Assembly: GCF_003660455.1 (NCBI RefSeq)
Contig: NZ_QZVR01000020.1
Coordinates: 1 to 64,000, forward strand
Reading direction: 5' to 3'
DNA from: Nocardioides ferulae
GTDB lineage: Bacteria; Actinomycetota; Actinomycetes; Propionibacteriales; Nocardioidaceae
Length of the DNA stretch: 64,000 nucleotides
Of the stretch, positions 18,762-34,120 are shown one piece after another. The notes below the pieces were generated by a model. That model did no database searches. It saw only the letters and a list, made by a program, of their open reading frames with translations, and was not told where the DNA came from. The translations under genes were made by a program, and so were the position numbers. The stretch's first letter is position 1; each line of letters opens with the position of its first letter.

Positions 18762-20432
18762 TCAGTGAGCCCGGTCGTGCAGCAGGGCCAGCTGCAGCAT
18801 CAGGTCGAACCGCTGTCGCGGGTCGCGCAGGTCGCACTCCCCCACCTCGGCCACCCGCCGCAGCCGGTAGCGGAACGTGTTGGGGTGCACGAACAGCGCC
18901 TCCGAGGCCGCGGCCACGTCGCCGAAGGCGTCCAGCCAGGCGCGCAGCGTCGGCACCAGGCTGGCGCCGTGGGCGAGGTCGTAGTCGAGCAGCCGGCTCA
19001 GGGCCCCCGTCGGCCGCTCGCCGCGGGCTGCGGCGAGGTCGCGCAGCTCGAGCAGCAGCGACTCGGTCTGGACGTCGGCCAGCCGGGCGACCCGCCGGTC
19101 GACGCGGCCCTCGCGCAGCACCCGCAGGATGCGGTCGGCCGTCCGGCGCGCGTCCACGACCTCCGCCAGCGAGCCCGCCACCGGTGCCACGGCCAGCACC
19201 GGCCGCAGCCGATCGCCGATCCGGTCGAGGAAGTCGGTGGCCAGCCGGACGGCGAACAGCTCGCTCTCCTCCGGCGCGGCGGACGCGGCGGCGAGCCCGT
19301 AGGCGACGCCGCCCAGCAGTGCCGAGGCGGAGCGGCTGGTGACCGCGTTGAGGTGCATCGAGAAGGCGTCGCCGAGCCGTTCGCGCTCGTGCCGGACGGC
19401 CGCGTCGGAGCCGCTGGCCGGCTCGGCGAGCGCGAAGCCCAGCACCACCAGGGGCGTGTCTGCCAGGCCGAGCCGCTCCAGCGCCTCGCGCGCCCCGGCG
19501 CCGCCCTCGAGCACCGAGCTGACCAGGTCGGCGCGGACCCGGCGCTGCACGTCGGCCCCCGCCCGCACCCGCAACAGGTGCAGCGCGACCAGCTTGGCCG
19601 CGTCGACGAGGGCCGCGGTGCGCTCCTCGCTGAGCGGCGCGGGCACCGCCGCCCAGATCGAGCCGAGCATCTCGTCGCCGGCTCGCACCGCCATCGCGAC
19701 CCGGGGCATCGTGAACTCGCCGGCCGGCTCGCTGCCGGGGTCGATGAAGACCGGGCCCTCGGAGCGGAGCAGGTCGCCGAAGACCCCGCGCTCGGTGAGG
19801 ATCCGGGCATAGCGCTCGGGGACCTGCCGGCCCAGGATCGTCTCCACCCGCGAGGGGTCGGCCTCGTCCTGGCGGCCGGAGAACGCCAGCACCCGCGAGC
19901 TGCGGTCCTCGATCGTGATCGGCGCGTCCAGCAGCGAGGCGATCGCGTTCGCCACCGCGAACAGGTCGCCGGACGGCAGGCCGCCCAGCGACTCCGGCTC
20001 GGCCGGGCCGACGTCACCCTCCGCGAGCACCGAGCGCAGCAGCGTGGCCAGGTGCGCCCAGGGCGCACCCCGCCGGAACCCGATCAGCGCGGTGCCGGCG
20101 GCGTCCGCCGCCGCCACCACCGCGGGATCCAGCGGCACGGGGGCCCGCAGCACCAGCGCCACCGCCCCCTGCTCCCCCAGGCGGGAGAGCAACCCGGCGA
20201 CCTGGTCGGGGTCGCTCACCCCGACGCCGAGCACCAACGAGTGCGGGGGCAACACCGGCGGGTCGTCCGGGTCGTGGATCACCACCCCGCCGAGGTCCAC
20301 CTCACGGTCGGGGTCGCCGTGCGCGAGCTCCAGCAGCGTCGCGCCCAGGTCGTCGAGGACCCGGCGCAGGCTGGCCCGCGGCCGCGCGGCCGCGGCGCCC
20401 GACGGGCTGCTCGGGATCTCGCTGGTGCTCAT
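18762..20432 (-). CDS. PucR-family transcriptional regulator
   Basis: A 556-residue protein from the ATG at 20432 (an upstream in-frame GTG at 20444 is possible). The N-terminal half holds a PucR/GGDEF-like sensory region. The C-terminus (about 490-550) has the PucR helix-turn-helix, with EALFVHPNTFRYRLRRVAE and DLRDPRQRFDLMLQLAL. PucR-type proteins usually activate catabolic genes on sensing the substrate. It follows the racemase gene by 63 bases on the same strand and appears to be the last gene of the ten-gene peptide/D-amino acid operon, so it is the natural candidate regulator. The inducer is unknown. Confidence 0.9.
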   Translation of the reverse strand: MSTSEIPSSPSGAAAARPRASLRRVLDDLGATLLELAHGDPDREVDLGGVVIHDPDDPPVLPPHSLVLGVGVSDPDQVAGLLSRLGEQGAVALVLRAPVPLDPAVVAAADAAGTALIGFRRGAPWAHLATLLRSVLAEGDVGPAEPESLGGLPSGDLFAVANAIASLLDAPITIEDRSSRVLAFSGRQDEADPSRVETILGRQVPERYARILTERGVFGDLLRSEGPVFIDPGSEPAGEFTMPRVAMAVRAGDEMLGSIWAAVPAPLSEERTAALVDAAKLVALHLLRVRAGADVQRRVRADLVSSVLEGGAGAREALERLGLADTPLVVLGFALAEPASGSDAAVRHERERLGDAFSMHLNAVTSRSASALLGGVAYGLAAASAAPEESELFAVRLATDFLDRIGDRLRPVLAVAPVAGSLAEVVDARRTADRILRVLREGRVDRRVARLADVQTESLLLELRDLAAARGERPTGALSRLLDYDLAHGASLVPTLRAWLDAFGDVAAASEALFVHPNTFRYRLRRVAEVGECDLRDPRQRFDLMLQLALLHDRAH

Positions 20433-20495
20433 GGCGGACGACACGCTCTCCTCGGGCGGGCGACGCGCCGAGCCTAATCGGGGTCCGACGCCGAG

Positions 20496-21620
20496 TCAGG
20501 ACCCGGCGCCGACGGGGATCCACTCGGTGGCGGTGGTGACCTCCTCCAGCCGCTCGGCGATCGGGGCCACCCCGAGGCCGGGACCGGTCGGCACCGTCAG
20601 GTGGCCGTCGTCGAGCACGAAGGGCTCGGTCACATCGGTGCGGTAGTAGCGGCCCGAGGCGGAGGTGTCGCCGGGCAGCGTGAAGCCGGGCAGCGCCGCG
20701 AGCGCGACGTTGGCCGCCCGGCCCAGCCCCGTCTCGAGCATGCCGCCGCACCACACCGGGACGCCGTGTGCGGCGCACAGGTCGTGGATCCGCCGCGCCT
20801 CCAGGTAGCCACCGACCCGGCCCGGCTTGATGTTGACGATCGAGCAGGCACCGAGCCGGATCGCCGCGGCCGCCGACTGCGCGGACACGATCGACTCGTC
20901 GAGGCACACCGGGGTGCGGATCAGCCTGGCCAGGTCGGCGTGCCCGAGGACGTCCTCCTCCTCGAGCGGCTGCTCGATCAGCAGCAGCTCGAACGGGTCG
21001 AGCCGCGCCAGGTGGCGGGCATCGGCGAGGGTGTAGGCGGTGTTGGCGTCGACCTGCAGCAGTACGTCGTCGCCGTACCGCTCCCGGACCGCGCGGACCG
21101 GCTCGACATCCCAGCCCGGCTCGATCTTGAGCTTGATCCGGACGTAGCCCTCGTCGAGGTAGCCGCCGACCGCGTCGAGGAGGGCGGGGATGGTGTCCAT
21201 GATCCCGACCGATACGCCGCACGGCACCCGGTCGTGCACGGCGCCGAGCTCGCGGGCGAACGACCGGCCGGCGGCGCGCAGCTCGGCGTCGAGCACCCCC
21301 ATCTCCAGCGCCGCCTTGGCCATCCGGTGGCCCTTGAACGCCGCCAGGGCCGGAGCGACCGCGGTGGCCTCGCGGACGCCGGCCAGGGCGGGCACCAGGA
21401 ACCGGCGCAGCACGTCCGCGGCCCCCTCGACGTGCTCGGAGGAGTAGAGGGGGCTCGCCATCACCACGCACTCACCCCAGCCCTCGGCCTCGTCGGTGAC
21501 CACCCGCAGCAGCAGCAGGTCGCGGGTGGTCTGGGTGCCGAACGAGGTGCGGAACGGCGAGACCAGCGGCATCGACACGTGGCACAGCTCGACGCCTTCG
21601 AGCCTGCCTGCCCCGCTCAC
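20496..21620 (-). CDS. N-succinylamino acid racemase/OSBS-family enolase
   Basis: A 374-residue member of the enolase superfamily. Catalytic lysines are in RIKLKIEPGWD (KxK) and SIVNIKPGRVGG. Metal ligands are in LQVDANTAYT (Asp), LIEQPL (Glu) and VCLDESI (Asp). The C-terminal GGMLETGLGRAANVALA and GFTLPGDTSAS signatures are those of the NSAR/OSBS family. No menaquinone genes are nearby, but an M20 deacylase and a COG3375-type GNAT overlap upstream, so racemisation of N-succinyl (or N-acyl) amino acids is favoured over o-succinylbenzoate synthesis. The GTG start overlaps the GNAT stop as GTGA. Confidence 0.9.
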   Translation of the reverse strand: MSGAGRLEGVELCHVSMPLVSPFRTSFGTQTTRDLLLLRVVTDEAEGWGECVVMASPLYSSEHVEGAADVLRRFLVPALAGVREATAVAPALAAFKGHRMAKAALEMGVLDAELRAAGRSFARELGAVHDRVPCGVSVGIMDTIPALLDAVGGYLDEGYVRIKLKIEPGWDVEPVRAVRERYGDDVLLQVDANTAYTLADARHLARLDPFELLLIEQPLEEEDVLGHADLARLIRTPVCLDESIVSAQSAAAAIRLGACSIVNIKPGRVGGYLEARRIHDLCAAHGVPVWCGGMLETGLGRAANVALAALPGFTLPGDTSASGRYYRTDVTEPFVLDDGHLTVPTGPGLGVAPIAERLEEVTTATEWIPVGAGS

Positions 21621-22588
21621 CGGGCGCTCCGCACGACGTACCAGCCGGCCCTGTCGAAGCCGGTGATCGAGGCGCCGCCGGCGAGGAGCGTGGTGAGGGC
21701 CGCGCGGACCTCCTCGCGCCACCGCTGGGCCAGCGCCGGATCGGTGGACCGGATGCGCGCGATGTCGCGCGGCACGGCGACCAGCGACACCGCGCCGTCG
21801 AGACGGCCCGGCTGCGGTGCGCCGTCCGGGGCGATGCCGAGGGCGATGACCGCGCCGGCGCGGACCTCCTCCTCCATCGAGGCCGGCATCCCGGATCCAG
21901 CGCAGGCGAGCGCCACGCCCGGGTCGCGCAGCCGCCACCGCACGAGCAGCCGGTCGGAGTCGTCGTCGCCGTTGATGGTGTCGACCATGGGGCCGTAGAA
22001 GTTCGGGAGGTACTCCACCGGCCGGGCGGCCAGCTTGACCAGGTTGAAGTAGGCGTTGCGGCTGACCAGCGGGTCGAAGGTCCAGGCGATCTCGGCGACG
22101 CCGTGCCGCAGCGCCCAGGCCCGCTGGTGGAGCTTGAGCGCGAAGCCCACCGAGCGGCCGGTCATGCCCCCGGCGACGCCGGCGATGTGGCTGTGCAGCG
22201 TGTCGTCGGCCGGGGCGTGGAAGAACCCGACGCAGGCGCCGACCAGGCGGTCCCCGTCGAGAGCGCCGGCGATGTAGTTGCCGGCCTTGGCGAAGGCGCG
22301 CAGCAGCTCGATGGTCATCGGCGGGTTCTCCGAGCGGCCCCAGATCGTGGCGTAGAGCGCCACGACCTGCTCGAGCTGCTCGAGCTCGGTGAGCTCGGTG
22401 ACGGTGACCCCCGCGGCCGACGCGGCGGCGTCGGCGGCCCGCGCGGCGTCCGCCAGGTCGGCGTCGAGGGCCGGGTCGGTGGCCGGGCCGAGGGGTGGCC
22501 CGGCAGACGCACCGGTGGGCGGTCGGGGGTCCAGGGAGGTGGGGTGCGGCACGGTGTGGGTCCTGCTCCAGGGGTCGGGGGTGGTCAT
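21617..22588 (-). CDS. GNAT acyltransferase, COG3375-like (D-amino acid N-succinyltransferase candidate)
   Basis: A 323-residue protein. The acetyltransferase core (about 70-170) contains ALYATIWG, GDRLVGACVGFF, HSHIAGV and GRSVGFALKLHQRAWAL, in which the GxSVGFAL part is a CoA-pyrophosphate loop typical of COG3375 proteins. ITWTFDP-like (AEIAWTFDPLVSRNAYFN) and NFYGPMVDTING are also typical of this group. In Geobacillus a relative succinylates D-amino acids ahead of NSAR. The first 60 residues are Ala/Pro-rich and probably disordered. ATGA overlap with the upstream M20 gene and GTGA overlap with the racemase argue for one pathway. Confidence 0.85.
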   Translation of the reverse strand: MTTPDPWSRTHTVPHPTSLDPRPPTGASAGPPLGPATDPALDADLADAARAADAAASAAGVTVTELTELEQLEQVVALYATIWGRSENPPMTIELLRAFAKAGNYIAGALDGDRLVGACVGFFHAPADDTLHSHIAGVAGGMTGRSVGFALKLHQRAWALRHGVAEIAWTFDPLVSRNAYFNLVKLAARPVEYLPNFYGPMVDTINGDDDSDRLLVRWRLRDPGVALACAGSGMPASMEEEVRAGAVIALGIAPDGAPQPGRLDGAVSLVAVPRDIARIRSTDPALAQRWREEVRAALTTLLAGGASITGFDRAGWYVVRSAR

Positions 22589-23751
22589 GGCCGGGTCGCC
22601 GTCGCGCTCGCGCGCAGGTCGGGCCGGTCGGTGGTCGGCGGGTCGGTGAGCAGGTCGACGAGAAGACCGCGCAGCAGCCGGGTCCGGTCGACGAGCCGGT
22701 CGACCAGCACGTGCTCGTGCTCGGCGTGCGCCCCGCCGCCGACGGCGCCGAGGCCGTCGAGGGTCGGCGTACCCACGCCGGCGGCGAAGTTGCCGTCGGA
22801 GGCGCCGCCGACCGCGGCGGTGGTGAGCGGCTCCAGGCCCAGCGACTCCGCGACCCGGTGCGCCCGGGCGAGCAGTCCGGCGGACGCGGACGCCTCCAGC
22901 GGCGGCCGGTTGGGCCCGCCGGTGATCTCCAGCTGCGCACCCGGCAGGACCGGACGCAGGGCCCGCATCGCGGCGTCGACCCGCTCCTGCTCGGCGATCG
23001 TGCGGACGCGGACGTCGACGCTGAAGGCCCCGGCTGCGGGGACCGTGTTGGTGGTGGTGCCGGCGCCGGCCAGGGTCGGCGTCACCGTGGTGCCGGCGGC
23101 GGGGTCGGCGAGCCGGGTCACGGCCAGCACCTGGTGGGCGAGCTCCACGGTGGCGTTGATCCCGCGCTCGGGCTCCAGGCCCGCGTGGGCGGCGTGCCCC
23201 CGCACCCCCACGTCGTAGAGGGAGACGCCCTTGCGCTCGGTCTTCAGGGCCCCGCCGTCGGCGGACGCCTCGAGCACCAGGACCGCGTCGCAGCGGCGTG
23301 CCTCCTCCTCCACCAGCCCGCGCGAGGTCGGCGAGCCGAGCTCCTCGTCGCCGGTGACCAGGATCGTCACCCCCTCCAGGCCGACGGCGGCGTGGAACGC
23401 CATCGCCAGCCCGGCCAGCATGTCGAAGCAGCCCGGTCCGCGCAGCACGGGGCCGGCGCCGGTGTCGGGGCTGGTGTTGGTGATCGTGCACGGTCGGGCG
23501 GCCAGGGAACCCAGCGGCCAGACGGTGTCGTGGTGGCCGAGCAGCAGCACCCGGCCCGGACCCTCGAGCGGCCGCCAGCGCAGGTGGGTCACGCCGTCGA
23601 GCACGATCCGCTCCGGTTCCCGGCCCAGGTGGGCCGCCCCCACGCGGGCCACGACCTCGGCCGAGCGGGCGACCGCGGCCAGGTCGGAGGAGGGCGACTC
23701 GCACTCCACCAGGGTCCGGATGTCGGCCAGCAGGCCCGGCAGGCTGGTCAC
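22585..23751 (-). CDS. M20-family metallopeptidase/deacylase
   Basis: A 388-residue dizinc amidohydrolase of the M20 family. Metal and catalytic residues lie in LLLGHHDTVWPLG (His and Asp), PGCFDMLAG (bridging Asp), TGDEELGSPTS (catalytic Glu and ligand) and AHAEHEHV (C-terminal His). The dimerisation domain sits between about 180 and 290. In the known D-to-L amino acid route an M20 enzyme removes succinate from N-succinyl-L-amino acid; carboxypeptidase or other deacylase activity is also possible. A GTG start lies 3 bases after the upstream stop, and its stop overlaps the GNAT start. Confidence 0.88.
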   Translation of the reverse strand: MTSLPGLLADIRTLVECESPSSDLAAVARSAEVVARVGAAHLGREPERIVLDGVTHLRWRPLEGPGRVLLLGHHDTVWPLGSLAARPCTITNTSPDTGAGPVLRGPGCFDMLAGLAMAFHAAVGLEGVTILVTGDEELGSPTSRGLVEEEARRCDAVLVLEASADGGALKTERKGVSLYDVGVRGHAAHAGLEPERGINATVELAHQVLAVTRLADPAAGTTVTPTLAGAGTTTNTVPAAGAFSVDVRVRTIAEQERVDAAMRALRPVLPGAQLEITGGPNRPPLEASASAGLLARAHRVAESLGLEPLTTAAVGGASDGNFAAGVGTPTLDGLGAVGGGAHAEHEHVLVDRLVDRTRLLRGLLVDLLTDPPTTDRPDLRASATATRP

Positions 23752-23754
23752 GGC

Positions 23755-26700
23755 TCAGCCCACCTTCGGCGTGGCCCGGGCACCGAAGTGCAGGTAGCGC
23801 TCGCCGCTCGGCAGCTCGTAGAACGTGACCGGGAACCAGGTCTCGGCCTCCGGCGGCTTGGTGAGGAACAGCCCGGGCGCGTAGGGCACCAGCGCGTGCT
23901 CGTCCACCGGGTCGGGCACCATCTCGGCGATCGGGCCGGTGAGCGTGGTGCGCAGCGACGGGCCGTCGTCGCCGAGCAGCACCTCCATGGTCACCCCGGC
24001 ACGCTGGTAGCGGCCGAGGTACGCCGCGACCGCGCCGGCGGGGTCGGGCAGCGGCGGCTGCGGCGGGGTGAGCGGCTGCGGCATCGTGACCTCGGCCAGC
24101 TCCGCGAACACCTCGCGGTAGAGGTCCTCGTAGAGGTCGCGGCTGCTCTCGGCGTTGGTGAGCATCGCGACCGCGAGCCCGCCCCCGGTCTCGGGGTCGG
24201 GCAGCACCCGAAGGAACGCGGACTGCCCGATCGTGTTGCCGTCGTGGCCGTAGAGCCGGTGCTCGCCCCACCCGAACCGGATCCAGCCCAGCCCCCACGA
24301 GTCGCCCAACGAGTGCTTGTCGGGCAGGTCGGCCTGGTGGGCGGCCATGGCCGCCGCGGAGTCCGCGCCGAGCACCCGGGTGCCGTCGGCGGCGAGGCCG
24401 CCGGTGAGGTGCAGCCGGGCGAACGCCAGCACGTCGGCGGCGTTGGCGGTGACCAGTCCGGCCGGGCCGAGCGATCGCGGGAGCTGCCAGACCGGGGCGA
24501 GCGAGCGGCTGCCCTCGTGGGTGACGTGGCCGACGGCGGCGGCGTGCAGCAGCGCCTCCTCCGGCAGCGTGACGGTGTGCTCGAGGCCGAGCGGGGTGAA
24601 CAGCCGCTCGCGCAGCGCCTGGTCCCAGGTCTGCCCGGTGAGCCGCTCGATCACTCGGCCGAGCAGCGAGAAGCCGGCGTTGCAGTAGGACCAGGTGGCG
24701 CCGAGGGGATGGTTCTGGGTCTGCTCGGCGAGCAGCTCGACGTAGCGCTCCAGGCAGTCGTCGCCGCGGCCGGTGTCGGTGAAGACGTCGCCGTCGATGC
24801 CGCTGGTGTGGTCGAGCAGGTGCCGCAGCGTCACCTGCTTGGTCACGTCGGGGTCGGCGAGCCGCAGCTCGGGCAGCACCTCGACCACCGGGGCGTCGAG
24901 GTCGGCGAGCCCCTCGTCGACGAGCTGCATCACCACGGTGGCGGTCCACACCTTGGTGATCGAGCCGATCTGGAAGACCGAGTCGGGTGTCACCGGCGCT
25001 CCGCTCGCCTGGTTGAGCACGCCGTGGGTCGCCACCACGAGCTCGTCCTCCCCCTCACCGTGGGCGGGCAGCCGCAGGATGCCCAGCTGCGCACCTGGTA
25101 CGCCGTGCCGCTCGGCCAGCCGGGACAGTCGCCGCTGCCAGTGGACCAGGTCGAGCTTCGGGCGGCCGCCGTGCCGGGTGTGCCGCTCGACCCAGTCGAC
25201 GAGCCGGTGGGCGTAGTCGAGGCGCTGCGAGGGCGGCCCGAGCAGGATGAACACGTGCGCGGCGCCGGGGTAGAGCACCAGCTCGGTGGGCACACCGCGC
25301 TCGCGCAGGCTGGTGTGCCACTGCAGGGCCTGGCCGACCGGGCAGGTGCGGTCGTCGGCGCCGTGCAGCACCAGGGTCGGGGTGCGCACGTCGTGGACGC
25401 GGGTGAGCGGTGACATCGCGGCGTACTCCTCGGGGCGCTCCCAGGGCGGGCCGCCGAGCTCGAAGGAGCCCATCGCGGGGCCGTCGTCGGCGGTGCCGTA
25501 CATGCTGGTCAGGTCGGCGACGACGCCGCCGGCGACCGCGGCCGCGAACCGGTGGTCGTGGCCGGTCAGCCAGCAGGTGGTGAACCCGCCGTAGCTGTAG
25601 CCGGTGACCGCGAGCCGCTGCGGGTCCGCGAGGCCCTCGGCGACCAGGGCGTCGACCGGCTCGAGGAAGTCGCGGTGGTCGGCGGTGCCCCAGGCGCCGT
25701 TGACGGCGGTGAAGAACTCCTCGCCGTAGCCGTCGCTGCCGCGGGGGTTGACCAGGAGCACAACCCAGCCCCGGGCGGCCAGCTCCTGGTGGTAGGGGTG
25801 CATCTCGTCGGCGGCGGCGTTCCACGCGTTGTGCGGGCCGCCGTGCACGTCGAGCAGCAGCGGTCGCGGGCCGTCGAGGCCGGGGTCGCGCACCAGCCAG
25901 GTCTGCACCTCGGTGCCGTCGGAGATCGTGAAGGTGCGCTCCTCGGGCAGGAACCGCTCGACGTCGGCGAGCGGGGCGCCGTGGTCGGTGAGCACGGACT
26001 CGCGGCCGGTGCGCAGGTCGAGCGCGACCAGCTCGCCGTGCGAGGTCGGGGTGCCGAGCACGACGACGGCGGTGTGCCCGGCGACGGTCAGCCCGGAGAC
26101 GACCCGGCCGGCGCCGGCGAGCACCGGGGTGGCGTCGGCGCCGGGTGCCTCGAGGCCGGGGAGCGACCAGAGGTGGGTGCAGCCGCGGTCGCGCACGCAG
26201 AACAGCAGCCGTCCGTCGGCGGTCTCCTGCGGCCGGCCGCCGGGGTAGCCGGGCCCACCCGGCATCACGTTGCGGTCGAGGTGGCCGGTGAGGTCGACGG
26301 GCTCGCCGCCGCCCGTTGCGGGAGCCGCGCCCGGCACCGGCACCCGCACCAGGTGCTGGTGGCCGAACCGGGAGCCGAGCGAACCGTCGGGGTGGCCGAC
26401 CACCAGCAGGCTGCTCCCGTCGCCGGTGAACGAGACGGTGCCGGCGAGGCCGTCGGCGAAGCCGGCGACCCGCGGCGTCGCCTTCGGGTCCGCGACGTCC
26501 AGCAGGTGCACCGCGGTGCGCCCGGTGAGGTCGCTGTCGGCCCCGACGCGCCGGGGGAAGGCGAGGGTGTGGCCGTCGGGCGACCAGGCCGCCTGGCCCG
26601 CGTGCTCGTCGCCGTCGGTGACCTGGCGGGTCTCGCCGGTGCCGAGGTCGAGCAGGTGCAGCTGCTGGCGGACCGCGCCGACCCAGCCGGCCCCGTCGGC

Positions 26701-27171
26701 CTGGTAGTCGACGCGGCGGGCGACGAGAGGCGGGGCGCCGGGACCCTGGTGCGGCGCGGGGTCGACGGGGGCGCTGAACGCCAGCCGGGTGCCGTCGGGG
26801 CTCCAGACCGGGACGCCGGCGCCGAGCGGCAGGTCGGTGAGCCGCTCTGCCTCCCCGCCGTCGGCGGGCAGCAGGTGCACCTGGCCCTCTCGCAGGAACG
26901 CCAGTCGCGACCCGTCCGGCGACCAGACGGGAGCGGTGTCGGCGGGGCCGGAGGTCAGCCGGCGGGCCGGCCGGTCGCCGGAGGTGTGCACGGTCCACAG
27001 CTGGTCGACGTTGCGGTCGTCCTCGACGTCGAGGGTGCGCAGCACGTAGGCGACGCGTGCCCCGTCCGGGGAGAGGTCCGGCTGGGAGGGGACGGCGAGG
27101 TCGGCCAGGTCGCCGACGCGCATCCGGCGGGTCGTCGTGGCGGTCGTCGCCGCGGGCCTCGTGGTCGTCAT
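23755..27171 (-). CDS. Fusion of S9 prolyl-oligopeptidase with beta-lactamase-fold serine peptidase
   Basis: An 1138-residue two-enzyme protein with no signal peptide. Residues about 15-400 form a beta-propeller (repeated PVWSPDGxRLAF motifs). Residues about 400-660 form an alpha/beta-hydrolase with GYSYGGF (Ser about 526), GADDRTCP (Asp) and GAAHVF (His), the S9 acylaminoacyl-peptidase type. Residues about 670-1138 are a class C beta-lactamase/D-aminopeptidase-like domain with SITK (Ser about 737), YCN and GHDGN motifs plus a C-terminal beta domain. The second half resembles the stand-alone protein at 32675-34063. It overlaps the upstream ATPase as ATGA. It could cleave imported peptides with L- and D-residues (inference). 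Confidence 0.92.
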   Translation of the reverse strand: MTTTRPAATTATTTRRMRVGDLADLAVPSQPDLSPDGARVAYVLRTLDVEDDRNVDQLWTVHTSGDRPARRLTSGPADTAPVWSPDGSRLAFLREGQVHLLPADGGEAERLTDLPLGAGVPVWSPDGTRLAFSAPVDPAPHQGPGAPPLVARRVDYQADGAGWVGAVRQQLHLLDLGTGETRQVTDGDEHAGQAAWSPDGHTLAFPRRVGADSDLTGRTAVHLLDVADPKATPRVAGFADGLAGTVSFTGDGSSLLVVGHPDGSLGSRFGHQHLVRVPVPGAAPATGGGEPVDLTGHLDRNVMPGGPGYPGGRPQETADGRLLFCVRDRGCTHLWSLPGLEAPGADATPVLAGAGRVVSGLTVAGHTAVVVLGTPTSHGELVALDLRTGRESVLTDHGAPLADVERFLPEERTFTISDGTEVQTWLVRDPGLDGPRPLLLDVHGGPHNAWNAAADEMHPYHQELAARGWVVLLVNPRGSDGYGEEFFTAVNGAWGTADHRDFLEPVDALVAEGLADPQRLAVTGYSYGGFTTCWLTGHDHRFAAAVAGGVVADLTSMYGTADDGPAMGSFELGGPPWERPEEYAAMSPLTRVHDVRTPTLVLHGADDRTCPVGQALQWHTSLRERGVPTELVLYPGAAHVFILLGPPSQRLDYAHRLVDWVERHTRHGGRPKLDLVHWQRRLSRLAERHGVPGAQLGILRLPAHGEGEDELVVATHGVLNQASGAPVTPDSVFQIGSITKVWTATVVMQLVDEGLADLDAPVVEVLPELRLADPDVTKQVTLRHLLDHTSGIDGDVFTDTGRGDDCLERYVELLAEQTQNHPLGATWSYCNAGFSLLGRVIERLTGQTWDQALRERLFTPLGLEHTVTLPEEALLHAAAVGHVTHEGSRSLAPVWQLPRSLGPAGLVTANAADVLAFARLHLTGGLAADGTRVLGADSAAAMAAHQADLPDKHSLGDSWGLGWIRFGWGEHRLYGHDGNTIGQSAFLRVLPDPETGGGLAVAMLTNAESSRDLYEDLYREVFAELAEVTMPQPLTPPQPPLPDPAGAVAAYLGRYQRAGVTMEVLLGDDGPSLRTTLTGPIAEMVPDPVDEHALVPYAPGLFLTKPPEAETWFPVTFYELPSGERYLHFGARATPKVG

Positions 27172-27977
27172 GGGGTCCTCCTGGGGGTTCGAGTGCCGGG
27201 CACGGCGGCGAGCAGCGCGCGCGTGTAGTCGTGGTGGGGGTCGGCGAGCACCCGGGCGGCCGGGCCCTCCTCGACGATCACGCCGTCGCGCATCACCGCG
27301 ACGTGGCTGGCGACGTATCGGACGACCGCCAGGTTGTGGGAGATGAACAGCATCGAGAGGCCCAGCTCGCGCTGGAGCTCGCGGACCAGGTTGAGCACCG
27401 CGCCCTGGATCGAGACGTCGAGGGCTGAGGTGATCTCGTCGGCGATGACCACCTGCGGGTCGCCGGCGAGCGCCCGGGCGAGCGCGACCCGCTGCCGCTG
27501 GCCCCCGGAGAGCAGGCCGGGGCGCACGGCAGCCCGGTCGGGGTCGAGGTGGACGAGCTCGAGCAGCCGGGCCACCTCGGCGCGCCGCTCCTCGCGGGAG
27601 GGTCCCGGCGGGATGGCCTCGGCGATGCTGTCGCCGATCGTCATCCGCGGGTCGAGCGAGGAGTAGGGGTCCTGGAAGACCATCTGCAGCGGACGCCGGC
27701 GGCCGCGGGTGGGCACCGGAGCCCCGCCCAGCAGCACCCGGCCGCCGGTGAGCGGCGCCAGGCCCACGGCGGCCCGGGCGAGCGTCGACTTGCCCGAGCC
27801 GGACTCGCCGACCAGCCCGACGACCTGGCCGGGCGGGACCGTGAGGCTGACCCGGTCCACGGCGGTGTGGCCGCGCCGGGCGCTGCCGTAGCGGACGGTG
27901 ACGTCCTCGAAGCGCAGCTCCGCGGTCGGCCGTCCGGTCGGCCGGGCGCTCTGAGATGTGGGCCGAGGCGTGCTCAC
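27168..27977 (-). CDS. Peptide ABC transporter ATP-binding protein (DppF/OppF-like)
   Basis: A 269-residue ABC ATPase. Walker A is GESGSGKST (about 55-63), the Q-loop is in MVFQDPYSSLDP, the signature is LLSGGQRQRVALAR, Walker B is VVIADEIT and the switch His is in FISHNLAVV. The VFQDPYSSLDPR wording is that of the Dpp/Opp F subunit. It lacks the extra C-terminal iron-sulfur-like cysteine region seen in many DppD/F proteins. GTGA overlap with the permease-ATPase fusion upstream and ATGA overlap with the fusion peptidase downstream show tight coupling of import and hydrolysis. Confidence 0.93.
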   Translation of the reverse strand: MSTPRPTSQSARPTGRPTAELRFEDVTVRYGSARRGHTAVDRVSLTVPPGQVVGLVGESGSGKSTLARAAVGLAPLTGGRVLLGGAPVPTRGRRRPLQMVFQDPYSSLDPRMTIGDSIAEAIPPGPSREERRAEVARLLELVHLDPDRAAVRPGLLSGGQRQRVALARALAGDPQVVIADEITSALDVSIQGAVLNLVRELQRELGLSMLFISHNLAVVRYVASHVAVMRDGVIVEEGPAARVLADPHHDYTRALLAAVPGTRTPRRTP

Positions 27978-29956
27978 GGCGCGTCCACCTCCACCAGCTC
28001 CACCGGGTCCACCGGCGCCGGCTCGCGGGGCCCGTCGACCGGGATCGGCTCGCCGGCGTGCCAGCAGGCGACCCGGTGGTCCGGCGTCTCGAACGAGGCG
28101 AGCTGCGGGTCCTCGGCCCGGCAGCGGTCGTCGGCCAGCGGGCAGCGGGCGGCGTACGCGCACCCGGCCGGCACCTCGCCGGGCGCCACCGGGCGGCCGG
28201 GGACCACCGCCAGCGGCTGCTCGAGGTCGGTCTCCATGTCGGGGACGGCGGCGACCAGGGCCCGGGTGTAGGGGTGGGCGGCGCCGGTGGCCAGGTCGGC
28301 GGCCGCGAGGTCCTCGACGATCCGGCCGGCGTACATCACCAGCACCCGGTCGCACACCTCGCCGACCACGGTGACGTCGTGGCTGATCAGCACCAGCGCG
28401 ACGTCGTCGGCCTCGCGGATCGCCTGGAGCAGGTCGAGCACCTGCTGCTGCACGGTGACGTCGAGGGCGGTGGTCGGCTCGTCGGCGATGATCAGGGCGG
28501 GCGAGCCCATCAGCCCCATGCCGATCATCGCCCGCTGGCGCATCCCGCCGGAGAACTCGTGGGGGTACTGCCCGGCGCGCCGCCGCGCCTCGGGGATCCG
28601 CACGGCCGCGAGCCGGTCGACGGCCCGGCCGAAGGCGTCGCGGCGGGTCATGCCCTGGTGTTGGCGGGCCACCTCGGCCAGCTGGCCGCCCATCCGCCGG
28701 GTGGGGTTGAACGAGGTCATCGGATCCTGGAAGACCATCGCCAGCGACGTGCCGAGCAGCTGCCGCTGGGCACGCTCGGAGCCGGTGCGCAGATCGGCGC
28801 CGAGCAGCTGCAGCCGGGCGGCCTCGACGCGACCCGGCTCCTCGATCAGCCGCGAGACGGCCAACGCGGTGAGCGACTTGCCCGAGCCGGACTCCCCCAC
28901 GACGCCGACCGCCTCGCCACGGCGTACGGCGAAGCTCACGCCGCGCACCGGCTGCACCGGGCCGTCGGCACCGGGGAAGCTCACCCACAGGTCGCGCACG
29001 TCGAGCACCGGGGCCTCGTCGTCGCCGGCGACCACCGGCTCCTCGGCGCGGATCGTGGGTGGGCCGGAGGTGGCCGGGCCCGCGCTCCTGCGCTCGGGCA
29101 GGTGACCGAGCGTGGCCACCCCGAGGCCCTTGGCGACCGACTCGCCGAACAGGTTGAAGGCGAGGCCGGCCAGCAGCACGGTCAGTCCCGGCGCCAGCGC
29201 GGCGGCGGGGTTGACGTAGAGGGCGCCGATGCCGTCGAAGAGCAGCCGCCCCCAGTCGTACTGCGGCGCCTGGACGCCCAGCCCGAGGAACGAGAGACCG
29301 GCGAACGACAGCAGCGCACCGCCGGCGCCGATGGTGGCGTTGACGATCAGTGGCTCGGAGATGTTCGGGAGCACGTGGCGCAGCAGCACCCGCACCCGGC
29401 CGACCCCGGCGGCCCGCGCCGCGGCGACGTAGTCGCGCGCGGCCACCCCGGCGACCAGCGTGTGCACGAGCCGGGCGAAGCTCGGGGCCCCCGCGATGCC
29501 GATCGCGAGCACCGCACCCCGCGCGCCCACCCCGAAGATGACCGCGAAGAACAGCGCGAGCAGCAGCCCGGGGAACGCGACGGCGATGTCGACCGACGCG
29601 GTCACCAGCCGGCCGAGGCGGCGTCCGAGCAGCATCGGGGCGGTGCCGAGCAGCAGGCCGAGCACGATCGCGATCGCGGTGGCGGTGAGGGCCAGGCCGA
29701 CCGAGAGCCGGGCGGCGACGAGCGAGCGGAAGAGGATGTCGCGGCCGAGGTTGTCGGTGCCGGCCCAGTGCTCCGCCGACGGTCCGGCCAGGATGTTGCC
29801 GGTGTCGACCGCGTCCGCCTGGTCGGTCCACAGCATCGGCGCGACGAGCGCGAGCAGCAGGACCAGCGCCATCAGGAGGCTCGCCCCCGCGCCCAGCGGG
29901 GTGCGGACCACCTGCCGCCAGCGCCGGGTCGGCTGCCGGGTCCTCTGCGCGGCCAC
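27974..29956 (-). CDS. Peptide ABC transporter DppC permease fused to DppD ATPase
   Basis: A 660-residue fusion. Residues about 1-290 are a DppC-type permease: six segments, the DNLGRDILFR signature after TM1 and an EAA-like loop ARAAGVGRVRVLLRHVLPN. Residues about 310-640 are an ABC ATPase with Walker A GESGSGKS, signature FSGGMRQRAMIG and Walker B LIIADEPT. The C-terminal oligopeptide-transporter motif has cysteines in GCAYAARCPLADDRC. Such fusions are known in actinobacteria. The GTG start lies 1 base after the DppB stop. It forms the importer with DppB, the DppF-like ATPase and the lipoprotein DppA. Confidence 0.93.
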   Translation of the reverse strand: MAAQRTRQPTRRWRQVVRTPLGAGASLLMALVLLLALVAPMLWTDQADAVDTGNILAGPSAEHWAGTDNLGRDILFRSLVAARLSVGLALTATAIAIVLGLLLGTAPMLLGRRLGRLVTASVDIAVAFPGLLLALFFAVIFGVGARGAVLAIGIAGAPSFARLVHTLVAGVAARDYVAAARAAGVGRVRVLLRHVLPNISEPLIVNATIGAGGALLSFAGLSFLGLGVQAPQYDWGRLLFDGIGALYVNPAAALAPGLTVLLAGLAFNLFGESVAKGLGVATLGHLPERRSAGPATSGPPTIRAEEPVVAGDDEAPVLDVRDLWVSFPGADGPVQPVRGVSFAVRRGEAVGVVGESGSGKSLTALAVSRLIEEPGRVEAARLQLLGADLRTGSERAQRQLLGTSLAMVFQDPMTSFNPTRRMGGQLAEVARQHQGMTRRDAFGRAVDRLAAVRIPEARRRAGQYPHEFSGGMRQRAMIGMGLMGSPALIIADEPTTALDVTVQQQVLDLLQAIREADDVALVLISHDVTVVGEVCDRVLVMYAGRIVEDLAAADLATGAAHPYTRALVAAVPDMETDLEQPLAVVPGRPVAPGEVPAGCAYAARCPLADDRCRAEDPQLASFETPDHRVACWHAGEPIPVDGPREPAPVDPVELVEVDAP

Positions 29957-29957
29957 G

Positions 29958-30998
29958 TCAGTCCTCCCGGATCATCGAGCGCGGGTCGAGCAGGGCGAGC
30001 ACGACGTCGACGGTGGTGTTCACCAGCAGCACGCCCACGCCGTACACGAGGACGATCGCCTGCACGACCGGGTAGTCCTTGTTGAGGATCGAGGACACGA
30101 TCGTGCTGCCCAGACCGGGCCAGGCGAAGACGTTCTCGACCAGCACGGTGCTGGCCACCATCGCGCCGAGGATCAGCCCGCCGAGCGTGAGCGCGGCGGT
30201 GAGCGCGTTCGGCAGGGCATGGCCGAGATAGACGCGCGGGGCCGGCAGCCGCTTGGCGCGGGCGGTCCGCACGTAGTCGGCCTCGAGCACGGTGACCATT
30301 TCGACGCGGATGATCCGGGCCAGGATCGCGGCAGGCCCGACCGCCAGCGAGAGCACCGGCAGCAGGTAGGCCTCGGGCCCGACGTTGCCGGCGACCGGGA
30401 GCCAGCCCAGCTGCACGCCGAAGACGTAGACCAGGCCGACGCCGAGCAGGAAGTCCGGGACCGTCGCGAGCACCACGCTGCTGGTCGTGAACGCCAGCTC
30501 CGTACGCCGCCCGCGGCCGCGGCGGGTCAGCACCCCCATGGTCACGCCGAGCGGCACCGCGACCGTCACCGCGGCGAGGAAGGCCAGCGCCGCCAGCGAC
30601 ACGGTCGCCGGGAGCCGCTGCGCGACCACGTCGGCGACCGGCAGCTGGGAGATCAGCGAGGTGCCCAGGTCGCCGGTGGCCAGGCCCCGCAGGTAGTCCC
30701 AGTACTGCACCCAGAGCGGGTCGTCGAGGCCGAGCGCCTCCCGCCGGGCCGCCACCAGCTCCGCGGGCGCGGTCGGCCCCATCGCCCCGCGCACCGGGTC
30801 GCCGGGGATCAGGTGGATCATCAGGAACGACGCGGTGACCAGCACCCACACCGAGACCAGCAGCCGCGCGAGGCGCCGGACCGCGAACCGCACCCAGTGG
30901 TGGGTGAGGGCCGAGGAGAGGCGCCCCCCTGGACCGGCCTGGGGGCCGGAGGTGGGAGTGGCGGGGGTCGAGGCGACCGCCGAGTTCGCCGTCGTCAC
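29958..30998 (-). CDS. Peptide ABC transporter permease (DppB-like)
   Basis: A 346-residue membrane protein. It has an N-terminal Thr/Pro/Gly-rich tail of about 35 residues, then six hydrophobic segments. The DppB landmarks are present: LIPGDPVRGAMG after TM1, LGLDDPLWVQYWDYLRGLATGDLG, and the cytoplasmic coupling loop DYVRTARAKRLPAPRVYLGHALPN. The GTG start is 10 bases from the stop of the substrate-binding protein. It pairs with the DppC half of the neighbouring fusion. Confidence 0.93.
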   Translation of the reverse strand: MTTANSAVASTPATPTSGPQAGPGGRLSSALTHHWVRFAVRRLARLLVSVWVLVTASFLMIHLIPGDPVRGAMGPTAPAELVAARREALGLDDPLWVQYWDYLRGLATGDLGTSLISQLPVADVVAQRLPATVSLAALAFLAAVTVAVPLGVTMGVLTRRGRGRRTELAFTTSSVVLATVPDFLLGVGLVYVFGVQLGWLPVAGNVGPEAYLLPVLSLAVGPAAILARIIRVEMVTVLEADYVRTARAKRLPAPRVYLGHALPNALTAALTLGGLILGAMVASTVLVENVFAWPGLGSTIVSSILNKDYPVVQAIVLVYGVGVLLVNTTVDVVLALLDPRSMIRED

Positions 30999-31008
30999 GC
31001 GATCGCCG

Positions 31009-32646
31009 CTACTTCGCCATCATCCGGATGCTGGTGGGGACCAGCTGACCCGGCGTCTCGAACTGCGCCTTCGCACCGAAGGTGCGGACCATGGAGTTGG
31101 CGAACGGCACGATGTCGGCGTTCGCGATCAGGCCGGCCTCGGCTTCGAGCCAGGCGTCGCAGCCCTCGGTGCCGGGCAGCGCCATGGCCTCCTGCACGGC
31201 AGCCTCGTACGCCGGGTCGTCGATGGCGGAGAAGTTGGTGCCGTCGGGTGCCGCCGGGCCGGAGAGGAACGGCACCAGCTGGTCGGGGCTGTTCACGTTG
31301 AGCGAGACCCAGGCCACGTCCCAGTCGCCGGCCCCGAAGATCGTGCCGGTGAGCGTGCCCTCGTTCTGGGCCCGGGCGGTGGCGTCGACGCCGACCTCGC
31401 GCCACTGCTGCACCGTCAGCTCGGCCGCCGCGTCACCGCTGCTGCCGAGGTTGTTCTGGTAGAGGAAGACCACCTCGAGCGGGCGGCCGTCCTTGGTGCG
31501 GACGCCGTCGCCGTCGCGGGTCCAGCCGGCGTCGTCGAGCAGCTGGGCCGCGGCGTCCGGGTCGTGCGGCGGCAGCGCTCCCGAGACCGAGTCGCCGGGA
31601 CACGAGACCGGCTCGTTGACCGCGAGCACGGTGGCCGGGCCGCCCTGCTCGGCGGTGATCACCTGCTGCAGCTCGGCCAGGTCGAGGGCCTGGGTGAGCG
31701 CCATCCGCACCGCGGGGTCGCTGGTGACCCGTCCCTCGGCGTGGTTGTACCACTGCTCACCGGCCAGGGCCGGCGTCTCGGCGTAGAACAGCCCGGACTT
31801 CTCGAGCCGCACGGCGTCCGGGCCGGCGATCTGCGCGGCGTTCAACCCGCCGGAGAGCAACAGGTTGGCGGCGGTCGACTCGTTCTCGACCACCTGCACC
31901 ACCACGGTGTCGGGCATGCCCTCGGTGGCCGTGGTGGCGCCGTCCGGACCCCAGGTGTAGCCCTCGCGGATCTGGTAGGTGTAGTGGTCGCCGGGCGCCG
32001 CCTCGGTCAGCGCATAGGGGCCCGTGCCGGCCGTGCCCTGCGCGAGCGCCTCTCGGTCGGCCAGGCCGCTGGGGCAGACGATCGGCAGGCTGGCCAAGCC
32101 GTTGAGCACGAACGGGGCGGGCGACTTCAGCGTCAGCGTGACCGTGCGGGCCGTGTCGTCTGCCTCCGCGCTGGAGCCGGCCGGCAGGAAGGTGCCGAGG
32201 AACGGGCTCTTGTTGGCCGGGTCGGCGACGAAGTTGAGGTTGTCGGCGACGTCGGTGGCGGTGAGCTCGGTGCCGTCGGCGCAGGTGATGCCCTCGCCCA
32301 ACGTGAGCGTGGTGGTCTCACCCTCGGTCTCCCAGGAGGTGGCCAGCGCGGACTTGATCTCACCGGTCTCGCCGTCGACGCTGACCAGCGGGTCGTAGGC
32401 GAACTGGGTGACCATGAACAGGGCGCTGCCGGCCGACATCTGCGGGTCGAGGTTGCCGGGGTCGGAGGACACCCCGAGCGTGAACGTGCCGCCGTCGACG
32501 ACGTCGCCCCCGGCGTCCGGACCCGAGCCGCTCGGGTCGTCGCCCCCACCACACCCGGCGAGGACGGCGGCGGTGACACAGAGCCCGAGAGCGGTGGAGG
32601 TCAGCTTCACGGGGAGCTTCACGGGGAGCTTCATGGCCTGCTTCAT
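31009..32646 (-). CDS. Peptide-binding lipoprotein (SBP family 5, DppA/OppA-like)
   Basis: A 545-residue lipoprotein. A basic start, hydrophobic core and lipobox (VLAGC) give a mature protein anchored to the outer membrane face. The family-5 body has DNLNFVADPANKSPF, FVLNGLASLPIVCPSG, GTGPYALTEAAPGDHYTY and VQVVENESTAANLLLSGGLNAA, as in DppA/OppA peptide receptors. The signal peptide contains a 12-base tandem duplication (KLPVKLPVKL). It follows the serine peptidase gene by 28 bases and leads the importer genes. Whether it prefers D-residue or murein-type peptides cannot be told from sequence. Confidence 0.93.
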   Translation of the reverse strand: MKQAMKLPVKLPVKLTSTALGLCVTAAVLAGCGGGDDPSGSGPDAGGDVVDGGTFTLGVSSDPGNLDPQMSAGSALFMVTQFAYDPLVSVDGETGEIKSALATSWETEGETTTLTLGEGITCADGTELTATDVADNLNFVADPANKSPFLGTFLPAGSSAEADDTARTVTLTLKSPAPFVLNGLASLPIVCPSGLADREALAQGTAGTGPYALTEAAPGDHYTYQIREGYTWGPDGATTATEGMPDTVVVQVVENESTAANLLLSGGLNAAQIAGPDAVRLEKSGLFYAETPALAGEQWYNHAEGRVTSDPAVRMALTQALDLAELQQVITAEQGGPATVLAVNEPVSCPGDSVSGALPPHDPDAAAQLLDDAGWTRDGDGVRTKDGRPLEVVFLYQNNLGSSGDAAAELTVQQWREVGVDATARAQNEGTLTGTIFGAGDWDVAWVSLNVNSPDQLVPFLSGPAAPDGTNFSAIDDPAYEAAVQEAMALPGTEGCDAWLEAEAGLIANADIVPFANSMVRTFGAKAQFETPGQLVPTSIRMMAK

Positions 32647-32674
32647 GGACGGGTCCCTTGGTCGCGGTGGTGGG

Positions 32675-34063
32675 TCAGGCGCCGGCGCGGCGGATGGCGC
32701 GGCCGACGTGGAGGTAGAGGGCGTGGCCGGCGCCGTCGTCGCCGACGAACGCGTGCGGCAGGTGCATCCCCTGCTCCGGCTCGACCGGGATCAGGCTGTC
32801 GTCGCCGAACGCGACCAGCTCCTTGCGGTCGGGGCTCTCCCCCATCTCGACCAGCGGCCCCTTCGGGATGGTGTCGACCCAGACCCGGCCGTCGTCGTCC
32901 TGGCTGACGACCAGGTCCATCACCTCGGCCGAGTAGGTGCCGACGAAGCGGGAGGCGTCGATGCGCTCCGGCTGCTGCGGCGGCGTGGGCAGGCCGGGCA
33001 GGTGGGTGTCGCTGAGCGACTCGACGAGGTGGCCGACCAGGTCGTGGTAGAGCGAGACGACGTCGCCGCCGTTGGTGAGCAGCGCGACGGCGAGCCCGGC
33101 CTCGGGCACCATCCGCAGGAACGCGTTCTGCCCGATCGTGCTGCCGTCGTGGCCGATGACGTCGCCCTCGGGCACGTCGAAGCGCTCGAAGCCCAGGCCC
33201 CACGAGGTGCCCATCACGCCGAGGTAGGGCAGCTCGACGCGCTTGGCCTGCATCCGCGCCGGCGTGCCGGGGGCGAGCACCTGGGTGCCGTCCGCGGCGC
33301 GGCCGTCCTCGAGGTGCATCCGGGCGAAGGCCACCAGGTCGCGGGGGCGCATCGCGAGCATCGAGCCGGCGGGCGCGTTCGACCGGGCCATCGCCCAGAT
33401 CGGGGCGGGCTGCTGGCCGGCTCCCGGCTCGAGCTCGATGTGGCCGACCGCGGCGCGGAACAGGATCGCCTCGTAGGGACCGGTGGCGGCGTGGCTGAGG
33501 CCCAGCGGTGCGAAGAGGTGCTCGCGCAGGCACGCGTCGTACGGCTTCTCGCGAACGACCTCGACCAGCCGGCCGAGCACGCAGTAGCCGGCGTTGTTGT
33601 AGGAGAACCGCTCGCCGGGCGGGAACAGCTGCGGCACCTCGTGGAGGACGCCGAGGTACTTCTCGACGCAGTCGTCGCCGACGCCGGTGTCGGCGAAGAT
33701 GTCGCCCTCGAACCCGGCGGTGTGCTGGAGCAGCATCCGGGTGGTGATCTGCGCGGCGGCGGCCTCGTCGCCGATCCGGAACTCCGGGAGGTAGGTGCGC
33801 ACGGGGGCGTCGAGGTCGACGCGGCCCTCGTCGACCAGCTGCATCACCAGGCTGGCCGTCCAGAGCTTGGTGATCGAGCCGATCTGGAAGAGCGAGTCGG
33901 GCGTGGCCTCGACGCCGGTGGCGGTGCTGAGCAGGCCGGCGGCGCCGTCGACGACCTCGCCGTCCTTGAGGACGGCCCAGGCAGCGGCCGGGACGCCGTA
34001 CTTCTCCAGGAGAGCCGGGAGCCGGTCGTCGACCCAGGCCCGGGTGTCTTCGAGGGTGGTCAT
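32675..34063 (-). CDS. Beta-lactamase-fold serine hydrolase (D-aminopeptidase/DD-peptidase-like)
   Basis: A 462-residue protein with no signal peptide. The active site has SITK (about 72-75), YNN (SYNNAGY) and GHDGS motifs of the class C beta-lactamase/esterase/DD-peptidase superfamily, followed by a small C-terminal beta domain. It shares the phrases QIGSITKLWTA, LVMQLVDEG and IGQNAFLR with the second half of the fusion peptidase, so they are paralogs. It is the first gene of the ten-gene operon. A TAGCGT box lies 8 bases before the ATG, suggesting a leaderless mRNA; an upstream in-frame start would lie beyond the box. D-amino-acyl peptide cleavage is inferred from context. Confidence 0.9.
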   Translation of the reverse strand: MTTLEDTRAWVDDRLPALLEKYGVPAAAWAVLKDGEVVDGAAGLLSTATGVEATPDSLFQIGSITKLWTASLVMQLVDEGRVDLDAPVRTYLPEFRIGDEAAAAQITTRMLLQHTAGFEGDIFADTGVGDDCVEKYLGVLHEVPQLFPPGERFSYNNAGYCVLGRLVEVVREKPYDACLREHLFAPLGLSHAATGPYEAILFRAAVGHIELEPGAGQQPAPIWAMARSNAPAGSMLAMRPRDLVAFARMHLEDGRAADGTQVLAPGTPARMQAKRVELPYLGVMGTSWGLGFERFDVPEGDVIGHDGSTIGQNAFLRMVPEAGLAVALLTNGGDVVSLYHDLVGHLVESLSDTHLPGLPTPPQQPERIDASRFVGTYSAEVMDLVVSQDDDGRVWVDTIPKGPLVEMGESPDRKELVAFGDDSLIPVEPEQGMHLPHAFVGDDGAGHALYLHVGRAIRRAGA

Positions 34064-34077: not shown

Positions 34078-34120
34078 GGAGCGCAAGCGGGCGCCGTGTT
34101 CGTCGAACTGGACAATGCGT

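Follow-up and report, generated by a model that had tools for sequence, protein, structure and literature searches.

The window analysed here comprises positions 1 to 64,000 of contig NZ_QZVR01000020.1 from Nocardioides ferulae (contig C20 of a 4.75 Mb genome in 68 contigs), and the system of interest is a row of ten genes, all on the minus strand, running from 34063 to 18762. The first encodes a serine hydrolase of the S12 family with the beta-lactamase fold, a putative D-peptidase with the motifs SITK, YNN and HDG (32675–34063). It is followed by a solute-binding protein (31009–32646), an ABC permease of the DppB/OppB family (29958–30998), a DppC- and DppD-family permease-ATPase fusion that relatives carry in the same form (27974–29956), an ABC ATPase of the DppF family (27168–27977), a protein of 1138 amino acids in which an S9 prolyl-oligopeptidase-family domain is joined to a second S12 domain (23755–27171), an M20 metallohydrolase (22585–23751), a GNAT-fold acyltransferase (21617–22588), an N-succinylamino acid racemase (NSAR) of the enolase superfamily, in the family shared with o-succinylbenzoate synthase (OSBS) (20496–21620), and a PucR/CdaR-like transcriptional regulator (18762–20444). 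From the first gene to the last, the junctions measure 28, 10, 1, −4, −4, 3, −4, −4 and 51 bases. The preliminary description of this DNA had ten consecutive minus-strand genes, exactly as we find them, and mostly 1–8 base gaps or overlaps, which fits six of the nine junctions, the other three being 10, 28 and 51 bases. Its list of gene families also stands: Pfam names nine of the ten proteins (in order Beta-lactamase, SBP_bac_5, BPD_transp_1, BPD_transp_1 with ABC_tran, ABC_tran, Peptidase_S9 with Beta-lactamase, Peptidase_M20, MR_MLE and HTH_30), and the GNAT is backed by the fold of its AlphaFold2 model; the first gene, called a serine peptidase, is more exactly an S12 hydrolase. NCBIfam contributes to the transporter, racemase and regulator assignments, and comparison with the PDB to those of the S12 proteins and the racemase. 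By eye, only the binding protein has a lipobox, and the hydrolases look cytosolic. In the regulator the HTH_30 domain is clear, and the PucR N-terminal domain, at 22.4 bits, stays below its cut-off of 33.5.

The racemase aligns with 1sja, solved as an 'N-acylamino acid racemase', at E 7.6e-190 and is a member of the same family as this Amycolatopsis N-acylamino acid racemase/OSBS. It retains the lysine motifs and the arginine of K-P-G-R, at whose position the solved variant 7s8w carries glutamine. An arginine in K-x-x-R favours NSAR chemistry, and the KxK motif, second lysine and K-x-x-R arginine of the Geobacillus-type racemase discussed below are all present in the window enzyme. Among the labelled NSARs of relatives (all at ≥55% identity by choice, with duplicates and the window counted), N[IV]K-x-x-R occurs in 147 of 147 and the KxK pattern in 142 of 147. 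Two other identities were rejected, namely DgcA (89.7 bits against the NF042940 cut-off of 400) and dipeptide epimerase (65.3 bits against a cut-off of 500 and 46.5 against 343, with NSAR the nearest).

Public record labels would instead make this enzyme the OSBS of menaquinone synthesis. All five plasmid records examined name the NSAR homologue menC, and the 'o-succinylbenzoate synthase' model TIGR01928 scores 301.5 bits with the window protein, over its cut-off of 200.65. We find this scarcely credible, and reject a menaquinone MenC identity, because the genome of the window has a dedicated MenC elsewhere (460.1 bits, cut-off 288), set with 4-base overlaps between an AMP-binding gene and a thiamine pyrophosphate-enzyme gene, as expected for the order menE-menC-menD, and because a separate MenC is also present in 19 of 24 further genomes that carry the operon or its core, among them all eight Amycolatopsis. 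None was found in the remaining five, three of them Streptomyces, which may, we presume, make menaquinone by the futalosine route. In Amycolatopsis, which we take to be the source of 1sja, the NSAR of A. rubida (locus L131) is identical to 1sja at all but 4 of 367 aligned positions, as counted on the printed alignment. Its locus is a rearranged copy of the operon, in the order D-aminoacylase-like, M20, GNAT, NSAR, PucR, class-A-beta-lactamase-like, S12, class-A-beta-lactamase-like, binding protein, permease and permease-ATPase, and the same genome has a separate menaquinone MenC. The accessible portion of one paper gives OSBS as the relevant function of the Amycolatopsis enzyme (PMC4215206), whereas the gene context here points to D-amino acid use. 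Judged from sequence, the operon context and the separate MenC argue against OSBS as the biological role of the 1sja-type enzyme and for a racemase role, one that later papers may already assign to it.

The acyltransferase gave no sequence match in Pfam, NCBIfam or the PDB. Its AlphaFold2 model, computed from an alignment of 20 homologues (predicted local distance difference test score 89), matches GNAT N-acetyltransferases, the first being phosphinothricin N-acetyltransferase (E 3.2e-7, target TM score 0.72). We infer that this enzyme is a succinyl-CoA:D-amino acid N-succinyltransferase and that the M20 hydrolase removes the succinyl group from N-succinyl-L-amino acids. In 2006 Sakai and colleagues reportedly described such a pathway in Geobacillus kaustophilus, made up of a GNAT succinyltransferase, NSAR and an M20 desuccinylase, and the same three enzyme families are neighbours in the window, the M20 gene among them. 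The window differs in having an Opp/Dpp importer, S9–S12 and S12 hydrolases and a PucR-like regulator in the same operon; it is an extended Geobacillus-type pathway with import and peptidases attached. Our comparison set consisted of plasmid loci from Priestia, Lysinibacillus and Deinococcus, in which homologues of the window GNAT (27–35% identity) lie near an annotated menC (43–46% identity to the NSAR). The two genes are adjacent on the two Bacillota plasmids (Priestia and Lysinibacillus) and one gene apart on that of Deinococcus. An M20 is annotated beside them in Lysinibacillus and Deinococcus and an amidohydrolase in Priestia; the window M20 itself had no tblastn match in the Bacillota and Deinococcus plasmid loci at E 1e-5, and the M20s there are known by annotation. 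On the Lysinibacillus plasmid the row reads peptide MFS transporter, M20, GNAT and menC, with a different importer in the same place. An unannotated stretch directly upstream of GNAT-menC on the Priestia plasmid (L207:5392-6931) has an amino acid permease-like reading in two frames.

The standalone S12 enzyme is a paralogue of the S12 domain in the fusion, with 43% identity over 464 aligned columns. Of the 'paralogous D-specific peptidases' of the preliminary description, the paralogy is thereby confirmed, and D-specificity of both domains is a plausible inference from their relatives. The catalytic motifs SxxK, YxN and HxG, which characterise S12 enzymes and are common to esterases too, are present in both window domains. 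They also recur in relatives: 42 first-gene S12s have SITK or SVTK in 39 cases, YNN in 38 and HDG in 40, and 81 S12s of the second type have SxxK in 68, YCN in 75 and HDG in 77. The first gene aligns with SurE (6ksu), a PBP-type thioesterase, at E 7.6e-43, with SxTK, YSN and HDG visible in the alignment, and further PDB relatives are alkaline D-peptidase, D-Ala-D-Ala carboxypeptidase and D-amino acid amidase. In the part of the source available, SurE cyclises peptides on release from nonribosomal peptide synthetases, closing rings at a C-terminal D-residue that its pocket is thought to hold (PMC11735501); the window relative is probably a hydrolase instead. The binding protein falls in the right superfamily for a peptide importer and reaches no DppA or OppA cut-off in NCBIfam; its family is SBP_bac_5, PF13407 having been considered and rejected, and the transporter substrate is presumed to be peptides. 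It varies more than any other part of the operon, at about 42–78% identity to the window in operon-type loci among L080–L159, where the NSAR stands at about 68–86%. This variability points, suggestively, to a shifting peptide preference.

Linkage was followed in 167 GNAT- or NSAR-anchored loci, 38 from the genus, 9 from the same order, 80 named loci (the best 80 of 576 relatives, a sample leaning to close relatives) and 40 from a phylum sample. Genes in these loci were called by a codon-score script and labelled at chosen thresholds of 30–58% identity to the window protein. Diverged NSAR-like neighbours (L072, L075, L076, L079, L168, L174, L191, L193, L198) and diverged M20s (L072, L075, L076, L079, L191, L193) are left unlabelled, and the order and phylum counts of both are correspondingly low. 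Flanks of the named loci extend 10 kb and often lose the operon start; duplicates (L080, L088, L089, L091, L150) were dropped only for the accessory-gene adjacency counts below. GNAT was labelled in 36 of 38 genus loci, 9 of 9 same-order, 80 of 80 named and 38 of 40 phylum-sample loci. It occurs in 35 of 118 same-genus genomes, the window's own included, and all 11 genus genomes over the TIGR01928 cut-off are among these. The 38 genus loci, drawn from 34 other genomes, have labelled NSAR in 35, PucR in 32, M20 in 30, transporter in 26, S12 in 26 and the S9–S12 fusion in 16; 23 combine GNAT, NSAR, M20, binding protein, both permease genes and ATPase F with an S12. A second form in the genus has lost the S9 half and kept a lone S12, and a minimal form is M20-GNAT-NSAR-PucR.

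The same picture extends to other genera. Labelled genes in the named loci are NSAR in 77, M20 in 70, PucR in 65, S12 in 60, S9 in 56, transporter in 54 and the S9–S12 fusion in 44; GNAT, NSAR, M20, the four transporter genes and S12 occur together in 37 of 80, or 41 of 80 if M20 is optional. Near-complete forms are seen in Actinoallomurus, Actinomadura, Kribbella, Prauserella, Lentzea, Actinophytocola, Virgisporangium, Streptomyces and Microbacterium, and in Pseudonocardia without M20; on a Streptomyces linear plasmid the order from binding protein to regulator is unchanged. Since relatives keep the same order, the arrangement is beyond chance. Elsewhere the linkage survives in altered form: the M20-GNAT-NSAR half precedes the S12-transporter half in Amycolatopsis, the two halves lie in opposite orientation in Blastococcus (L157) and Microtetraspora (L159), and they are interleaved in Phytoactinopolyspora (L132). 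That linkage outlasts rearrangement suggests selection over mere inheritance. The conservation of linkage on which the proposal of a single operon turned is therefore found across many actinobacterial genera, rearranged forms included. Together with Klenkia (L096), the Blastococcus and Microtetraspora loci, with system parts on opposite strands, are useful for studies of operon assembly. Of eight genomes searched for NSAR, five lack it at the GNAT locus (L063, L065, L087, L090, L156), and all five have one elsewhere, which for L063 and L065 belongs to the other GNAT-NSAR locus of the genome; the other three (L085, L120 and L148) have a local NSAR. Searches of six of the ten named loci without labelled M20 found an M20 relative in all six genomes (best identity 47–70%). 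Across 396 phylum genomes, GNAT is matched strongly in 67 (in 70 if three weak matches are counted) and NSAR over the cut-off in 80; 61 have both, within 3 kb of each other in 58 (Fisher 1.9e-47, uncorrected for relatedness), and at least five more phylum-sample loci carry a diverged NSAR-like neighbour. This distribution suggests that GNAT and NSAR are the older pair, with the peptide machinery added in part of the actinobacteria.

From gene content, protein families, linkage, motifs, the GNAT fold, the separate MenC and the conserved upstream element, we read the locus, with a probability of about 0.7, as a PucR-controlled catabolic operon for peptides containing D-residues, with D-to-L conversion by way of N-succinylation. 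The lipoprotein and the Opp/Dpp-type ABC importer would take up short peptides, which would be cleaved in the cytosol by the S9 domain at ordinary bonds and by the two S12 enzymes at bonds beside D-residues. Released D-amino acids would be succinylated by the GNAT with succinyl-CoA, NSAR would convert N-succinyl-D- to N-succinyl-L-amino acids, and the M20 hydrolase would strip succinate from the L form; the flow would be driven in one direction by the CoA thioester spent and by the L-selectivity of the hydrolase. Control would be exerted by the PucR-like regulator through tandem dyads that lie immediately upstream of a leaderless promoter. Racemisation by NSAR is reversible, and the route could in principle run the other way, supplying the D-amino acids needed in wall editing or in secondary metabolites; the presence of an importer and peptidases in the operon suggests catabolism, and we consider production of D-amino acids very unlikely.

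Genes beside the core in relatives are consistent with catabolism of D-residue peptides. Three accessory families stood out against four controls, both sets having been chosen after clustering of unlabelled neighbours and with related loci counted repeatedly. M19 enzymes accept a C-terminal D-residue, and an M19 dipeptidase (nearest PDB entry 3id7, renal-dipeptidase-like) is an immediate neighbour of the core in 11 of 13 occurrences, seven of these representing a single Lentzea-type arrangement in which it sits between ATPase F and S9–S12 with a 4-base overlap upstream. Elsewhere it precedes S12 (L051, L148) or M20 (L151), or lies one gene from S9–S12 (L162). Of 27 D-aminoacylase-like amidohydrolase genes, whose products are nearest in the PDB to N-acyl-D-glutamate deacylase and D-aminoacylase, 21 adjoin the core. 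In seven Nocardioides loci they diverge from S12; Amycolatopsis and some other genera have them upstream of M20 or GNAT, and in one Blastococcus the gene follows PucR. For class-A-beta-lactamase-like genes the figure is 15 of 18, and in Amycolatopsis they lie next to S12. The control families are beside the core far less often (SDR 2/23, AKR 3/17, TetR-like 2/7, MFS 1/12). An annotated dipeptidase on an Arthrobacter plasmid adjoins S12-type hydrolases, regulator and M20. Import of D-residue peptides and D-to-L conversion, as first proposed for this DNA, thus gain from the M19, D-aminoacylase-like and class-A-beta-lactamase-like genes and from the separate MenC, with substrates and specificities standing as predictions. 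On the same Arthrobacter plasmid, an unannotated stretch before GNAT-menC (L210:8009-9859) holds an M20-like piece by tblastn and an M19-dipeptidase-like reading by eye. In the window, a FAD oxidoreductase of the DAO family (4201–5475, plus strand), about 13 kb from the operon, scores 179.7 of 383 bits with its best NCBIfam model, a D-amino acid dehydrogenase subfamily, and is possibly a second D-amino acid enzyme.

The same neighbours bear on two other explanations. If N-acylated amino acids or peptides were what the importer takes up, they could be racemised and deacylated by NSAR and M20 with help from the D-aminoacylase relatives, the GNAT having some other substrate; the adjacency of D-aminoacylase-like genes agrees with this, as do the putative acyl-peptide hydrolases among the structures near the S9 domain. 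The GNAT-NSAR pairing, found across three phyla, would be unneeded for ready-made N-acyl compounds, and we judge this explanation improbable. Alternatively, the operon could inactivate imported D-residue peptide antibiotics or beta-lactams, with D-amino acid salvage secondary. D-stereospecific resistance peptidases are known from actinomycetes, and S12 and, in relatives, class-A-beta-lactamase-like hydrolases cluster at the locus; hydrolysis of nonribosomal peptides by D-stereospecific peptidases is also described in the available part of PMC9541196. An importer and a three-step salvage route would, however, be poor tools of resistance, and by eye the standalone S12 has no signal peptide. In place of the KTG of beta-lactamases, the two S12 domains of the window have HDG, and an antibiotic-inactivating role seems unlikely to us. 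Catabolism of D-residue peptides remains our preferred reading.

The region upstream of the first gene holds elements that fit such control. A proximal candidate operator dyad, ATTGTC-N6-GACGAA, lies in the intergenic region at 34099–34116 (minus strand) and agrees with the consensus at 10 of 12 positions; a degenerate distal candidate, TTCGTC-N6-GATGGC (34131–34148, minus), lies 32 bp further upstream. A −10-like TAGCGT (34072–34077, minus) stands 8 nt before the ATG and follows the TANNNT rule for −10 boxes, marking a possible leaderless promoter. In the alignment of upstream regions (15 rows in the first version), close Nocardioides have the dyad TTSGTC-N6-GACSAA near −51, often repeated near −83, and then, about 8 bases short of the ATG, a box resembling TANNNT. 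Over all upstream regions, tandem dyads are 32 apart in 15 pairs, the next commonest spacing having 4. From this spacing of three helical turns and from the short leader we suspect an activator site and a leaderless message. Sites with a spacer of 6 that match at 10 of 12 positions were counted against an other-spacer control. Close Nocardioides, the window among them, have such sites in 12 of 16 upstream regions (control 3.0, mean after shuffling 0.3), other PucR-bearing loci in 13 of 55 (control 4.0) and loci lacking PucR in 2 of 62 (control 2.0); some 'first genes' found by the script, which begin at an unlabelled gene, a gap of more than 150 bases or a stretch end, are operon-internal, and their upstream regions contain no promoter. 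At 9 of 12 positions the counts are 16 of 16 against an other-spacer control of 10.5, and because this control is high, half-sites account for part of the signal. A genome search with TTSGTC-N4-8-GACSAAC gave three matches in two places and missed the window's own site, and one with TTGTC-N5-7-GACGAACA gave four places, of which the three besides the window's look coding from their translations by eye, a weak call in GC-rich DNA, where stop-free frames alone are uninformative. No wider regulon is claimed.

Several observations weigh against the proposed D-residue peptide catabolism. The family of the binding protein also binds nickel, opines and glutathione, and no NCBIfam cut-off is reached. 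The nearest solved structure to the M20 is carboxypeptidase G2, no desuccinylase, and the best PDB match of the first S12 gene is IS11 (7spn, E 3.5e-61). In NCBIfam that gene scores 93.3 bits as a methyl acetate hydrolase (cut-off 550), 74.9 as a class C beta-lactamase (cut-off 415) and 43.1 as a D-aminopeptidase (NF009622, cut-off 443); the fused S12 follows the same ranking (77.9, 68.4 and 52.6 bits), and neither domain comes near any of these cut-offs. Because the esterase and beta-lactamase models outscore the D-aminopeptidase model, esterase activity of the S12 domains is possible. There is no M19 in the window's own genome, and the operator at 10 of 12 positions is found in 0 of 8 further Nocardioides upstream regions. 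Outside the genus, the nine same-order loci have labelled NSAR in 5, transporter in 4, S12 in 4 and M20 in 3, some being too diverged to label, and 19 of the 80 phylum genomes with a TIGR01928 match have no strong GNAT match. In the 40 phylum-sample loci, with labels requiring 40–58% identity, NSAR is labelled in 29, M20 in 2, S12 in 1 and the transporter in 0 at the chosen thresholds. The order and core of the ten-gene unit recur in relatives, and its full form is not universal. Every substrate and stereospecificity, the acyl donor and the binding of the regulator are predicted, the weakest points being the transporter substrate, the S12 stereospecificity and the acyl donor.

Two known systems invite comparison. 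In the accessible text on the murein-peptide genes of Bacillus subtilis, dppB-E and ykfA-D, YkfB epimerises the dipeptide directly, with the NlpC/P60 protein YkfC and the LD-carboxypeptidase YkfA (PMC2954226). There, genes for a dipeptide ABC transporter and for peptidases adjoin that of an enolase-superfamily epimerase, a grouping that resembles the window's; that text names no GNAT or M20, both of which the window has. The window operon works like dpp-ykf but is no member of it, its racemase being no dipeptide epimerase and Pfam finding no NlpC/P60 domain, as in YkfC, in the ten window proteins. In the DgcN-DgcA route, N-acylation is likewise followed by an enolase-superfamily racemase, with an acyltransferase of a family other than the window's; the NCBIfam name 'N-acetyl-D-Glu racemase DgcA' agrees with this chemistry. 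The route turns D-Glu into L-Glu, according to the part of PMC10845958 available. No description of the whole assembly as one unit was found among titles and abstract starts in the open-licence literature, a scope that most subscription papers fall outside.

If correct, our reading defines the genetic route by which soil bacteria of a major group return peptide-locked D-amino acids to metabolism, and the label 'o-succinylbenzoate synthase' in public records needs correcting. We tentatively go further, at somewhat less than even odds, and propose that the 1sja-type Amycolatopsis racemase is native to a widespread actinobacterial catabolism of D-residue peptides (e.g. nonribosomal peptide debris), that S9–S12 is a two-chirality peptidase and that the menaquinone role is wrong. 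This would give a physiological setting to a textbook enzyme of promiscuity and misannotation and make its true role directly testable. The S9–S12 fusion and S12 hydrolases are possible new D-peptidases, and the dyad is a candidate PucR operator.

Other genes of the window may be noted briefly. A P-type (E1-E2) ATPase with a C-terminal hemerythrin HHE domain (51244–53532, plus strand) shows a pairing that seems unusual. On the minus strand, 59090–62431 holds an extradiol dioxygenase (272.4 of 366.45 bits with the biphenyl-2,3-diol model) together with an acyl-CoA-dehydrogenase-like protein and a BPD_transp_2 permease, possibly an aromatic-degradation cluster. A glucodextranase-type protein with a GH15 domain is encoded at 37288–39495 (minus), and an ArsR-type HTH-rhodanese fusion at 17038–17703 (minus) shares a run of genes on that strand with a DsbD-like membrane gene.

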